Positions 25,809-29,869 of a stretch of 64,000 nt of DNA are shown piece after piece. Under the pieces are notes generated by a model. It had not been told where the DNA came from. It was given only the letters and a program-made list of their open reading frames with translations, and ran no database searches. Origin of the DNA: Chloroflexota bacterium (GTDB taxonomy: Bacteria; Chloroflexota; Limnocylindria; Limnocylindrales; CSP1-4); NCBI GenBank assembly GCA_015478725.1, contig JADMIG010000009.1, forward strand, positions 1 through 64,000, written 5' to 3'. Each line of letters starts with the position of its first letter. Positions within the stretch are counted from its first letter, which is position 1. The position numbers and the translations under genes are program-made.

Positions 25809-25810
25809 CG

Positions 25811-25840
25811 CTCGACCCCGCTCGACCCCGCTCGACCCCG
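25811..25840. repeat. tandem repeat, 3 x CTCGACCCCG
   Basis: Three perfect head-to-tail copies of a 10-mer begin 3 nt after the codB stop. The minus strand has three GGGG runs, one short of a canonical G-quadruplex. It lies 27 nt before the 41-bp dispersed repeat. Confidence 0.8.
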
Positions 25841-25867
25841 CCGGGCAGGGTCCAGGCCGGAAAAACA

Positions 25868-25908
25868 GTTCACGCATGAACGATTCACGGATGAACGACT
25901 TCCGGCGG
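25868..25908. repeat. dispersed repeat, copy A
   Basis: A 41-bp segment with a partner at 29830-29869: 32 of 41 positions are identical, with one gap. Inside it the 15-mer TTCACG(C/G)ATGAACGA is repeated in tandem (25869-25883, 25884-25898). Each copy contains the inverted repeat TTCAnnnnTGAA. It lies in the leader region of the response-regulator gene and may be an autoregulatory site. Confidence 0.7.
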
Positions 25909-26017
25909 GGCGGTCCGAGCGCGGCGGGGCGGTCCAGGGGCGGCGCGGAGGTCCAGGGCCTCGGGCGCGCGCACCCGAGGCACAATTGGTGGACGTTCGC
26001 CCTGCGATGATGCCGCC

Positions 26018-26698
26018 ATGCGCGACGCCGCCCGGATCCTCGTCGTCGACGACGACCCTCGCCTCGGCGCCTCGATCGGGCGTGCCCTCCGCTACGAGGG
26101 CCACACGGTCGAGCTCGCCGGGGATGGCCCGACGGCGCTTGACGCCGCCCGCGACCGACTGCCCGATCTCGTCGTGCTCGACGTCATGCTCCCGGGCATC
26201 GACGGGATCGAGGTCTGCCGGCGGCTCAGGGCCGCGTCGGACGTGCCGATCCTCATGCTCACCGCCCGCGACGCGGTCGGCGACCGGGTGATCGGCCTCG
26301 ATGCCGGGGCGGACGACTACCTCGTCAAGCCGTTCGCCTACGAGGAGCTCGTCGCCCGGGTCAGGACGCTCCTCCGCCGCCGCATCCCCGCCCACCGCGA
26401 GATCCTCCGCTGCGCCGACCTCATCATGGATGTGGGCGCCCACGAAGTGCGGCGCGGCGATCGCCCGATCGCACTGTCCGCCCTCCAGTTTCGCCTCCTC
26501 GAGCACTTCCTCCACCACCCCCGCCTCGTCCTCGGCCGGGACCGCCTGCTCGACGCCATCTGGGGCCTCGATGCGGACACCGCCTCGAACGTCGTCGACG
26601 TCTACGTCGGCTACGTGCGCGAACGACTCGAAGCTGCCGGAGAGCCGAGGCTCCTCCACACCGTGCGGGGTGTGGGATATGTCCTTCGGGAGCCGTGA
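26018..26698 (+). CDS. OmpR/PhoB-family response regulator
   Basis: A 226-aa two-component transcription factor. The receiver domain (1-118) has the acidic pocket VVDDD, the phospho-acceptor Asp in VVLDVMLPG, the Thr of MLTARD and the Lys of LVKPFAYEEL. A winged-helix DNA-binding domain follows (about 130-226: LSALQFRLLEHFLHHP, TASNVVDVYVGYVRERLE, HTVRGVGYVLRE). It is of the MprA/TrcR-like subgroup often paired with kinases like the one downstream, whose start overlaps its stop. Its likely targets are the phased repeats after the kinase gene and the palindromic repeat upstream of its own start. Confidence 0.92.
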   Translation: MRDAARILVVDDDPRLGASIGRALRYEGHTVELAGDGPTALDAARDRLPDLVVLDVMLPGIDGIEVCRRLRAASDVPILMLTARDAVGDRVIGLDAGADDYLVKPFAYEELVARVRTLLRRRIPAHREILRCADLIMDVGAHEVRRGDRPIALSALQFRLLEHFLHHPRLVLGRDRLLDAIWGLDADTASNVVDVYVGYVRERLEAAGEPRLLHTVRGVGYVLREP

Positions 26699-28083
26699 TG
26701 CGGATCCGGCGGCGACTCGTCCTCTATGCGATCGGGGTCGCGGCGGCGGGGATGACCCTGTTCAGCGTGCTCCTCATCGCCCTCGCCGCCCAGGGCGTCG
26801 TCAGCGACCAGGACCGGACCCTGGCCGCCCTCGCGGACCGCGAGGGCGGCGTCGTCGCGGGGATGGATCCGGGGACGCTGGCGAGCCGGCAGCCGCTCGT
26901 CGTCGAGGACCTCGCGACGTCGATCGATCCGTTCGTGCTCGTTCTCCACGACGACGGGACCTCGCTCTACGCCACGGCCCTCCTCGGCGGCGCACCGCCG
27001 CACATCCCGGCCGCTGTCCTGGTCGAGGCGATCTCCCTCGGCGACTCGATCGCGACGATCCGACCGGCCCCCACGATCGAGCTCCGCATCCACGCTCATC
27101 GCTGGACGGGAGTCGGGAACAAGGGAGTCGTCGTCGCCGGTCAGTCCACCCGCTTCACGGCAGACCAGCTGGCCGGTCTCCGGGCGTTCCTCATCTTCGC
27201 CGCGATCATCACGATCGTGGCGGTCGCGCTCGTCAGCTGGCTCGTGACGGGCAGGGCACTCCGACCGCTCCGCTCGCTCGCCGCGACGGCAGCGTCGATC
27301 GGCGCGACCGCCGACCTCGCCACCCGCCTGCCGGGGGTGCGGACCCGGGACGAAGTCGGGGTCCTGACGGCGAGCTTCAACGGGATGCTCGACCGGCTGG
27401 CGGATGCGCAGGCCCGGCTGGCGGCCGCGCTCGATGGACAGCGCCGATTCGTGGCCGACGCGTCCCACGAGCTGCGGACGCCGCTCGCGACGATCCGAAC
27501 GAACGCCGGGTTCCTCGTCGAGCACCCTGACGCCACGGCTCCGGATCGCACCGAAGCGCTCGGTGACATCCTTGCCGAGGCTGACCGGATGGCGCGTCTC
27601 GTGGACGAACTGCTCGCTCTTGCCCGATCGGACGCCGGCGCCCCGATCGAGCGTGGGCCGGTCGATCTCGCCGCCGTCGCGGCCGACGTCGTGCGCTCGG
27701 CGCGGCGGGCGGACCGGGAGGTCCGGCTCGAGGATCGGGGACCGGTCGTCGTCGGGGGCGATCGAGATGCGCTCGCGCGACTGGTCTGGATCCTCGTCGA
27801 CAATGCGATCCGCCACGGAGCCGGGACGATCTCCGTCGCCACGTCCTCCGATGACGGGTCGGCCCGCCTGACCGTGGCGGACGAGGGACCAGGCATCGCG
27901 CGCGGCGATGAGGAACGGATCTTCGATCGTTTCCACCGCTCCGATCCCGCCCGGGCCGGTGGTGGCGCCGGGCTCGGCCTCGCCATCGGGCGAGGCATCG
28001 TCGAGGCCCACGGCGGCCGGATCCGAGCGGTGAACCGCCCGACGGGTGGCACGATCTTCACGGTGGAGCTGCCATCCAGCTGA
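26698..28083 (+). CDS. sensor histidine kinase
   Basis: A membrane-bound kinase of 461 aa and partner of the preceding regulator. Transmembrane helix 1 spans about 9-31 and helix 2 about 162-184. Between them is a periplasmic sensor region of roughly 130 residues with no recognised fold. A HAMP linker (about 185-240), the H-box DASHELRTPLATIRTN, and an HATPase domain with VDNAIRHGAG, DEGPGIARGDEERIFDRFHR and GGGAGLGLAIGRGIVEAHGG complete it. The signal is unknown. ATG at 26698 shares its A with the regulator stop; GTG at 26695 is an alternative. Confidence 0.92.
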   Translation: MRIRRRLVLYAIGVAAAGMTLFSVLLIALAAQGVVSDQDRTLAALADREGGVVAGMDPGTLASRQPLVVEDLATSIDPFVLVLHDDGTSLYATALLGGAPPHIPAAVLVEAISLGDSIATIRPAPTIELRIHAHRWTGVGNKGVVVAGQSTRFTADQLAGLRAFLIFAAIITIVAVALVSWLVTGRALRPLRSLAATAASIGATADLATRLPGVRTRDEVGVLTASFNGMLDRLADAQARLAAALDGQRRFVADASHELRTPLATIRTNAGFLVEHPDATAPDRTEALGDILAEADRMARLVDELLALARSDAGAPIERGPVDLAAVAADVVRSARRADREVRLEDRGPVVVGGDRDALARLVWILVDNAIRHGAGTISVATSSDDGSARLTVADEGPGIARGDEERIFDRFHRSDPARAGGGAGLGLAIGRGIVEAHGGRIRAVNRPTGGTIFTVELPSS

Positions 28084-28091
28084 GGGAATCT

Positions 28092-28135
28092 CTCATCGAA
28101 CGCTCATCGTCCGCTTGGGCGTCACTCATCCGCCG
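28092..28135. promoter_or_regulatory. four 11-bp phased repeats, OmpR/PhoB-type operator candidate
   Basis: CTCATCG-AACG (28092), CTCATCG-TCCG (28103), CTTGGGC-GTCA (28114) and CTCATCC-GCCG (28125) follow at exactly 11-bp steps. A heptamer plus 4-nt spacer is the layout of PhoB/OmpR-family operators. It lies between the kinase stop and the next gene, so the cognate regulator is the obvious candidate. The third unit is poorly conserved. Confidence 0.6.
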
Positions 28136-28140
28136 GCCGG

Positions 28141-28587
28141 ATGCTGGGCCCCATGACCGACACTCCACGACCGCTCCGTCCGGCTCCACCCGACGACATC
28201 GTCGAGCTCGTCCGGATCATCGTCCTCCTCCAGGCGGCGACACTCACCCTGGCGACGCTCGAGACGACGGTCTGGTTCGTCGCATTCGGGCCGACCGTGG
28301 GTCCCTCCCTCGCGCTCACGGCGATGTCCGCGATGCTCACGTATGCGACGGCCGTCGGACTCCGTCGGCATGCGCGGTGGGCGCGGCGCGTCACCCTCGT
28401 CGCGGAGTCCCTGGTGTTCGCCGGCGGGTCGATCGACGCTGTCCTCGCCCTCGTCGTCGCGGGCGGACCGCCGCCGCTCGTGGTGGCGCTCACGAGGATC
28501 GCGGTCCCGGTCCTCGTCATCGTCCTCCTCCGACGACCGACCGCCCGGGCGGCGTTCGGCCGTCTCCCTGCGACGGCCACGCCATGA
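28141..28587 (+). CDS. four-helix membrane protein of unknown function
   Basis: A hydrophobic protein of 148 aa with four predicted membrane segments (about residues 22-44, 50-66, 83-107 and 112-130), a proline-rich N-terminus and a basic loop GLRRHARWARR. No family was recognised. An ATG at 28153 is an equally good start; neither has a clear ribosome binding site. It begins directly after the phased repeats and its stop overlaps the next start (ATGA). This suggests a regulated two-gene unit under the two-component system. Confidence 0.65.
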   Translation: MLGPMTDTPRPLRPAPPDDIVELVRIIVLLQAATLTLATLETTVWFVAFGPTVGPSLALTAMSAMLTYATAVGLRRHARWARRVTLVAESLVFAGGSIDAVLALVVAGGPPPLVVALTRIAVPVLVIVLLRRPTARAAFGRLPATATP

Positions 28588-29780
28588 TCCCCAACCCGCT
28601 CTACCACATCGAGGGCGACCACATCGCCGGCCTCGCCGCGCTCGCGGTCCTCATCGCGGCGGCGCTGCTCGTGGCCGGACTCGCGCGGAGCGGATACGGT
28701 CCGGCCCGGCGCATCCGCGACCGCCACGCCGCCCTGCCGCCCGTCGATCGGCTCCTCGTCTGGTGCCTCACCATCTCGGCCGCCGTCCATCTCGGCCTGT
28801 TCGCGCATCGCGGTCCGTTCGGACTCGCGTTCGTCGTCGACGGGATCCTCCTCGGTGGGGTGGCCCTCCGGATCCTCGCCGGCCGTCCGTCGCGACGCGC
28901 GGCCCGCCTGGTCCTGCTCGGATCGCTCGCCGCGTGGTGGGTGACGGTCCTCGCCGGCGAACCCCCGGATCAGCTCGGCATCGCGACGAAGCTCATCGAG
29001 CTCGCCGCCATCGCCATCGTCCTGCGCCCACGCCGCGGCCGCCGAGTCAGGGGAGCGCTCGCGGGGGTCGTCACGACCATCCTCGTCCTCATCACCGGGA
29101 TCGCGGGCTGGGCGGGCGCCTTCGTGGCCGCCGAGCCGCAGGCGCAGCCCGTCGCGAACGTCAGCGGATCGCCCGGCACGGGATCGTCCGTCGTGGACGG
29201 CGGACATGGTCACGGCGCGGTCCCCGGTCCGACGGTCGTCATGGACATCCGGGCCGCGGGGACCGGGGAGGCGAGCGCCGCGGAGCAGGCCGCCGCCGAT
29301 CGCTTCTACGCCGCGACGAAGGCGGCGGTGGCCCGGTTCGCCGATCCGGCGGTGGCCCGGGCGGCAGGATACCGACTCGACGGCGTGACCGGCGTCGACT
29401 TCCATGCCGTGAACAACGCCTACGAGGGCGACGGCCTCGTCCTCGATCCGGCCCGACCGGAGATGCTCGTGTACGCGGCGTCACGGCGGGGTCCGGTCCT
29501 GCTCGGAGCCGTCTTCGTCATGCCGGGCCTGCACGAATCCGGACCGGCGGTCGGCGGCCCGCTCACGACGTGGCACGCCCACGAGGACATCTGCCTGTCG
29601 ATCCTGCCGCCTGGCCTGTCGGGCGCCCTCTCGCCCCTGGGCGACTGTCCCGTCGGCTCGGTGACGCTCCCGATGACGGCCGAGATGCTCCACGTCTGGG
29701 TCGCGCCTGGCACGCCCATCCGGTTCGGCGACCTGCCCGAGGCATGGCGGCGTGCCTACGTCGCCCGGCTGGGAGCGTGA
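28584..29780 (+). CDS. membrane protein with a C-terminal WHxHE-containing domain
   Basis: A 398-aa protein. The first ~180 residues hold about five hydrophobic segments with the N-terminal NPLYHIEGDHIAG. A short histidine-bearing linker follows (DGGHGHGAVPGP). The exported-looking C-terminal domain (about 220-398) has the blocks FADPAVARAAGYRLDG, NNAYEGDGLVLDPARPEML, TTWHAHEDICLS and AEMLHVWVAPG. The WHxHE plus cysteines suggests a metal site. I do not know a characterised member. It is translationally coupled to the preceding membrane protein and is the last gene of the two-component module. Function is unknown. Confidence 0.7.
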   Translation: MIPNPLYHIEGDHIAGLAALAVLIAAALLVAGLARSGYGPARRIRDRHAALPPVDRLLVWCLTISAAVHLGLFAHRGPFGLAFVVDGILLGGVALRILAGRPSRRAARLVLLGSLAAWWVTVLAGEPPDQLGIATKLIELAAIAIVLRPRRGRRVRGALAGVVTTILVLITGIAGWAGAFVAAEPQAQPVANVSGSPGTGSSVVDGGHGHGAVPGPTVVMDIRAAGTGEASAAEQAAADRFYAATKAAVARFADPAVARAAGYRLDGVTGVDFHAVNNAYEGDGLVLDPARPEMLVYAASRRGPVLLGAVFVMPGLHESGPAVGGPLTTWHAHEDICLSILPPGLSGALSPLGDCPVGSVTLPMTAEMLHVWVAPGTPIRFGDLPEAWRRAYVARLGA

Positions 29781-29829: not shown

Positions 29830-29869
29830 GTTCATCGGTGAACCATCCACGGATGAGCGATTTCGGCGG
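29830..29869. repeat. dispersed repeat, copy B
   Basis: The 40-bp partner of the repeat at 25868-25908. It begins with the inverted repeat GTTCA-TCGG-TGAAC, followed by CCACGGATGAGCGA. It closes the two-component module on the right, between convergent genes. Confidence 0.7.

Follow-up and report, generated by a model that had tools for sequence, protein, structure and literature searches.

The locus described here raises the question of what role is played by a short series of direct repeats, located in the gap that follows a sensor kinase gene, and which protein recognizes them. The window, i.e., the whole 64-kb stretch of DNA which was analyzed, contains upstream of the repeats two overlapping genes on the plus strand. 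The first of them (26018–26698) encodes a response regulator (RR) of the OmpR/PhoB family, with the Pfam domains Response_reg and Trans_reg_C, which is the proposed binder of the array, and the second (26695–28083) encodes its partner, a sensor histidine kinase (HK) with the Pfam domains HAMP, HisKA, and HATPase_c. The conservation of such arrays, of their spacing to a −10 element, and of their place in the gap in relatives suggests, as its most likely role, that of an RR-activated, and probably leaderless, promoter of two downstream membrane-protein genes for the array.

The repeat array and its surroundings

Direct reading of the sequence bore out the preliminary description of this DNA, which had reported four repeats phased by 11 bp, the third of them degenerate. 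The units, all on the plus strand, are CTCATCGAACG (28092–28102), CTCATCGTCCG (28103–28113), the degenerate CTTGGGCGTCA (28114–28124), and the promoter-proximal CTCATCCGCCG (28125–28135), which served as the anchor for measuring the spacing to the −10 element. Exact CTCATC words begin at 28092, 28103, and 28125, and the degenerate unit at 28114 is in the same 11-bp register, which is kept in relatives. A weaker third unit was also observed at the same place in relatives, as CTAAGGCAGCA at locus L249 and CCCATCGCCCC at locus L283. The array is located between the stop codon of the kinase gene (28083) and the next gene.

Two genes on the plus strand follow the array. The first one, named here DUF1 (28153–28587), is an open reading frame for a 144-aa hydrophobic protein without a Pfam match, and it is predicted to be the first regulated gene. 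The second predicted regulated gene, named here BIG (28584–29780), encodes a 398-aa protein with seven predicted membrane helices and a His/Cys-rich C-terminal domain, in which H274, H331, H333, C337, C355, and H370 are invariant, including a WH-x-H motif. The search for matches to BIG in Pfam, NCBIfam, and the PDB, the latter compared both by profile and by fold using a model with mean pLDDT of 79, was negative. Since there are invariant histidines and cysteines but no match to a known fold, a metal or redox role of BIG is only a suggestion.

To compare the array with the rest of the sequence, a score combining four units with a −10 element was used, the weights of which were set by hand with the relatives and the array already known, and for this reason the comparative evidence presented below is stronger than the values of 25.9 for the array versus 13.7 for the second-ranked site in the window. 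When the window was shuffled 60 times with its dinucleotides preserved, no score higher than 18.8 was obtained, none of 1000 shuffles of the gap downstream from the kinase gene matched that of the array, and other OmpR-type loci of the same genome (G000) reached at most 17.2. The array is also the only exact CTCATC-N5-CTCATC sequence in the window. The genome search for such pairs, which had been proposed earlier, was positive, with three exact pairs in the 3.45-Mb genome versus none for the reversed pattern; the genome-wide statistics given here were drawn from searches and fetched stretches. The exact pairs at C1:30315, which is devoid of the −10 T at +20, and at C35:21351, which is devoid of the fixed −10, are not claimed as targets. 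Identical CTCATCCACCCTTCATC sites with identical flanks at L074 (G000:C48) and L075 (G000:C3) represent a duplicated stretch of the assembly.

The repetition of CTCATC could alternatively be a functionless product of chance or of coding-like sequence, because this word is common at multiples of three in the GC-rich coding DNA of this organism, and because, with two mismatches allowed, the window contains no more matches to the pattern than chance would give (five matches versus 7.9 expected). However, the spacing of 11 bp is out of codon phase, the site is intergenic, and its conservation extends across phyla. The arrays that are conserved in 15 distant relatives, described below, already contradict this explanation, and its probability is close to negligible.

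Two other types of repeats are present nearby. The preliminary description had noted related YTCATC/GATGAR words in both 40-bp repeats, and had proposed that one regulator may act on these repeats as well as on the array. TTCATC and GATGAR words do occur there, but the common regulator did not hold up, because the 40-bp repeats (25869–25898 and 29831–29860) are dispersed intergenic palindromes, with TTCAnnnnTGAA present twice, 15 bp apart, with neither the 11-bp phase nor a −10 element. Six further sites of this palindrome family were found in the genome at up to three mismatches (G000:C3:4560, C3:27055, C3:88536, C16:40112, C26:6123, and C35:21458), and its members often have a GC-rich outer stem flanked by A-rich sequence; they are possibly terminators or REP-like elements. 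Additionally, no site scores as an array ahead of the RR gene, which makes the sharing of one regulator by all three sites highly improbable. At 25809–25841, directly 3′ of a permease gene, a 10-bp unit (CGCTCGACCC) is present three times head to tail.

Conservation of the array with the operon

The BIG gene was not found in the other 106 of the 107 genomes of the family, and hence the operon was compared with that of more distant relatives; a phylum-wide genome search showed that BIG is present across Chloroflexota, often 3′ of a kinase gene. All 15 relatives from outside the family in which the HK gene adjoins BIG have an array with a −10 element in this gap, so the loss of the array from relatives that keep the operon, which the preliminary description had regarded as decisive against its proposal, was not encountered. 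In every gap CT(C/T)A units recur every 11 bp, four of them strong in three relatives and two in the remaining 12, and the scores of these arrays were reached by zero to three of 200 shuffles. In the relative G405, which has an RR 68% identical to that of the window, the sequence CTCATCGAATT CTTATCCTTCT CTAAGGCAGCA CTCAGCGCCGC ggccGACGAT contains four units with a weak third one, and a −10 element as in the window. In the gap of another relative (G260, L250:4400–4870) the array is preceded by an extended series of degenerate units of the type TTGCACTCCGTGGG.

Similar arrays were found at further loci. In an Acidimicrobiia MAG (L283, JALSQW010000055.1), the sequence CTCATCGGGTG CTCATCGAGTC CCCATCGCCCC CTCATCGTGCC ggtcgACCAT has the same four-unit layout as the window, and four-unit arrays 3′ of the HK gene are also present in the Chloroflexi MAGs L284, L285, L286, and L302. 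The RRs of these five loci are about 61%–68% identical to the window RR. At L284–L286 the RR–HK pair and the array are followed by a gene for an HtrA-type protease with trypsin and PDZ domains, which is reminiscent of the MprAB-PepD and CutRS-HtrA secretion-stress systems, while at L302 a plastocyanin-like protein is encoded downstream. Overall, RRs about 57%–68% identical to that of the window have CT(C/T)A arrays with 11-bp spacing in their promoters, and among the named loci compared no strong arrays were found 3′ of the HK gene for RRs at 54% identity or less. Because the same switch is present in distant bacteria which have retained this set of genes, the array is very probably the binding site at which the partner regulator turns on the next two genes.

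Several relatives have an additional array directly 5′ of the RR gene, indicative of autoregulation, and the window has none there (score of 6.3; 645 of 1000 shuffles scored at least as high). Shortly 5′ of the RR start codon in the window there is a palindrome, GCCTCGGGCGCG/CGCACCCGAGGC (25958–25981), with 12-bp arms that are 92% complementary, and this palindrome may serve to control the RR gene itself.

The spacing of the repeats was also evident when larger sets of sequences were compared. At the loci around RR homologs, CTCA[TG] words were spaced by 11 bp 50 times, by 22 bp 20 times, and by 33 bp nine times, versus zero to five occurrences at every other spacing in the range from 6 to 39. 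Triple CTCA at 11-bp steps gave at least 79 matches in 26 genomes of the family versus three for the reversed pattern, and these matches cluster on contigs carrying an RR paralog about 58%–61% identical. When the −10 element was added to the triple CTCA pattern, about 140 matches were found in 39 of 177 genomes of the class versus one match of the reversed pattern.

The −10 element and the start codon

The predicted −10 element is GATGCT (28140–28145, plus strand), in which A at +16 and T at +20, counted from the last unit, correspond to 28141 and 28145. The last heptamer occupies 28125–28131, and the −10 element begins 8 bp further on. When 51 arrays of relatives were aligned on their last CTCA, A was present at +16 in 42 of them and T at +20 in 48, which defines a −10-like nAnnnT at fixed spacing. 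The −10 played no part in finding these 51 arrays, while it was included in the search or score used for the 177-genome, 15-relative, and named-locus comparisons, and hence the alignment is the sole independent test of this element. The start codon of the relatives is often located at +27 or +28 from the last CTCA, and the DUF1 ATG at 28153 is 28 nt from the start of the last unit, so that the window array fits both the −10 positions and the start-codon spacing exactly. This spacing suggests that the DUF1 transcript is probably leaderless. Consistently with a location in promoters, 50 of 52 arrays on contigs with the RR paralog are intergenic, and 49 of these 50 face a gene on the same strand. 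By comparison of sequences, the array, its register, and its fixed distance to the −10-like element and to the start codon are conserved together with the RR clade. The −10 element and the promoter role for the downstream genes were absent from the preliminary description.

The location of the array next to the −10 element has a bearing on the direction of regulation. The array overlaps the core promoter, and an RR bound over the −35 region could shut the downstream genes off; a precedent is provided by CutR, which represses htrB from a site located 17 bp ahead of the start site (PMC12802291). On the other hand, there is no conserved −35 hexamer, and the repeats take its place at the distance typical of activators, with 8 bp to the −10 element as in SARP promoters, which makes a repressor site very unlikely. 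Instead, it is highly probable that the array constitutes the operator, and replaces the −35 region, of an RR-activated promoter driving the region 28153–29780. We infer RR binding, activation rather than repression, the start site, and the signal as follows. Activation of the kinase would lead to phosphorylation of the RR (26018–26698), which would then bind head to tail, with one subunit per 11-bp unit, at four sites of which the third is weak. The last subunit would sit beside sigma region 4 of RNA polymerase, and transcription would start about 7 bp 3′ of GATGCT (28140–28145), at or adjoining the ATG at 28153. The kinase signal is probably envelope or metal/redox stress.

The identity of the regulator

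The locus has the features of an OmpR/PhoB-type operator, which are a nearby regulator with receiver and winged-helix Trans_reg_C domains as detected by Pfam, direct repeats on a 10–11-bp register in the promoter, and conservation with the regulator–kinase operon (15 of 15 relatives and further named loci). The best relative of the RR in the PDB by sequence is PhoP of Mycobacterium tuberculosis. Together with the domains of the RR and the arrays in the same register beside close RR homologs, this match supports the proposed tandem binding on one helix face. The RR remained below the curated cut-offs of the PhoB phosphate regulators (TIGR02154; 220.2 versus 296.2 bits) and of the heavy-metal CzcR/SilR/CopR regulators (TIGR01387; 200.6 versus 279.2 bits), and the score for CopS-type kinases was also below the cut-off (TIGR01386; 212.5 versus 292.55 bits).

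The main binder could also be a paralogous RR, which would place the operon in a copper regulon. In the same genome the contig with the RR paralog, C22, encodes a multicopper oxidase, a copper-type P-ATPase, cupredoxins, and an HMA protein, and its copper-type island (G000:C22:9700–30300; L162 and L163) contains eight CTCA arrays and two tandem two-component systems. The C22 RR, which is 59% identical, could bind or share the window array, because the island arrays agree with it in the CTCA register and in the spacing to the −10 element, and because seven of 10 sites with a CTCA pair and a −10 element in this genome are on C22, near the copper genes. However, the island arrays are mostly CTCAG, while that of the window is CTCAT, and the recognition helices differ (NVLEVYVRYLR versus NVVDVYVGYVR). 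The same split is observed more broadly, with NVV(D/A)VY(V/I)GY in the RRs of BIG operons versus N(V/I)LEVY(V/I)RY in those of copper islands, which fits the cis-encoded RR as the binder. Moreover, outside the family the RR–HK–BIG set has its own array in 15 genomes, which also argues against the copper-island RR, and we consider this assignment unlikely. Similar copper-type islands were observed in the family at G002:C17 and C72, G018:C8, G019:C90, and G023:C60.

Comparison with known systems

In Escherichia coli the pho box consists of 11-bp direct repeats in place of the −35 element, to which PhoB binds head to tail. The array differs from it in the word and in the signal, and the RR is under the PhoB equivalog cut-off. 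The sites of M. tuberculosis PhoP, which are 7-bp direct repeats strictly spaced by 4 bp and bound by a tandem dimer that extends to trimers and tetramers (PMC4832192), are similar in the type of RR and in the 11-bp register, while the word, here CTCATC, and the operon are different. In Streptomyces SARP promoters (AfsR/afsS) the repeats are 11 or 22 bp apart, and 8 bp separate the 3′ repeat, which overlaps the −35 region, from the −10 element (PMC10936776). This geometry is identical to that of the array, but SARPs contain an OmpR-type DNA-binding domain and a BTA domain and no receiver, whereas the neighbor of the array is an RR with receiver and Trans_reg_C domains, accompanied by a kinase. 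The CopR site of Corynebacterium glutamicum, TGAAGATTTnnTGAAGATTT, is a direct repeat in the 11-bp register at −266 to −285 (PMC3140484). The copper genes of that system resemble the sister island on C22, while its site differs from the array in having two units, an AT-rich word, and a position far from the start site. The published motifs of MprA (TKTTAAGAAM) and CutR (TAWATAAA) do not match CTCATC. The geometry is known from OmpR/PhoB and SARP promoters, while the word, the regulon, and the downstream protein family appear to be undescribed; no regulator binding site for uncultured Chloroflexota was found in the literature searched.

The array might even be, although this is a tentative proposal with somewhat less than even chances, the mark of an undescribed two-component clade across Chloroflexota and Actinomycetota, in which one promoter code controls a lineage-dependent envelope defense set. 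In the proposed code, which would be fixed, CT[CT]A units recur every 11 bp and are separated by 8 bp from nAnnnT, which is followed after about 7 nt by a leaderless start, and the set would include, depending on the lineage, the new family of seven-helix proteins with the His/Cys-rich domain, HtrA-type proteases, or copper proteins. The data indicate that a cis-regulatory code can be read in uncultured Chloroflexota from comparison alone, and for two genes whose products contain no known domains they putatively identify the regulator and the promoter, together with a probable start site. The code also yields a prediction of the copper-island regulon in this genome, and, with about 140 matches versus one control match in 177 genomes, it is specific enough for class-wide target prediction.
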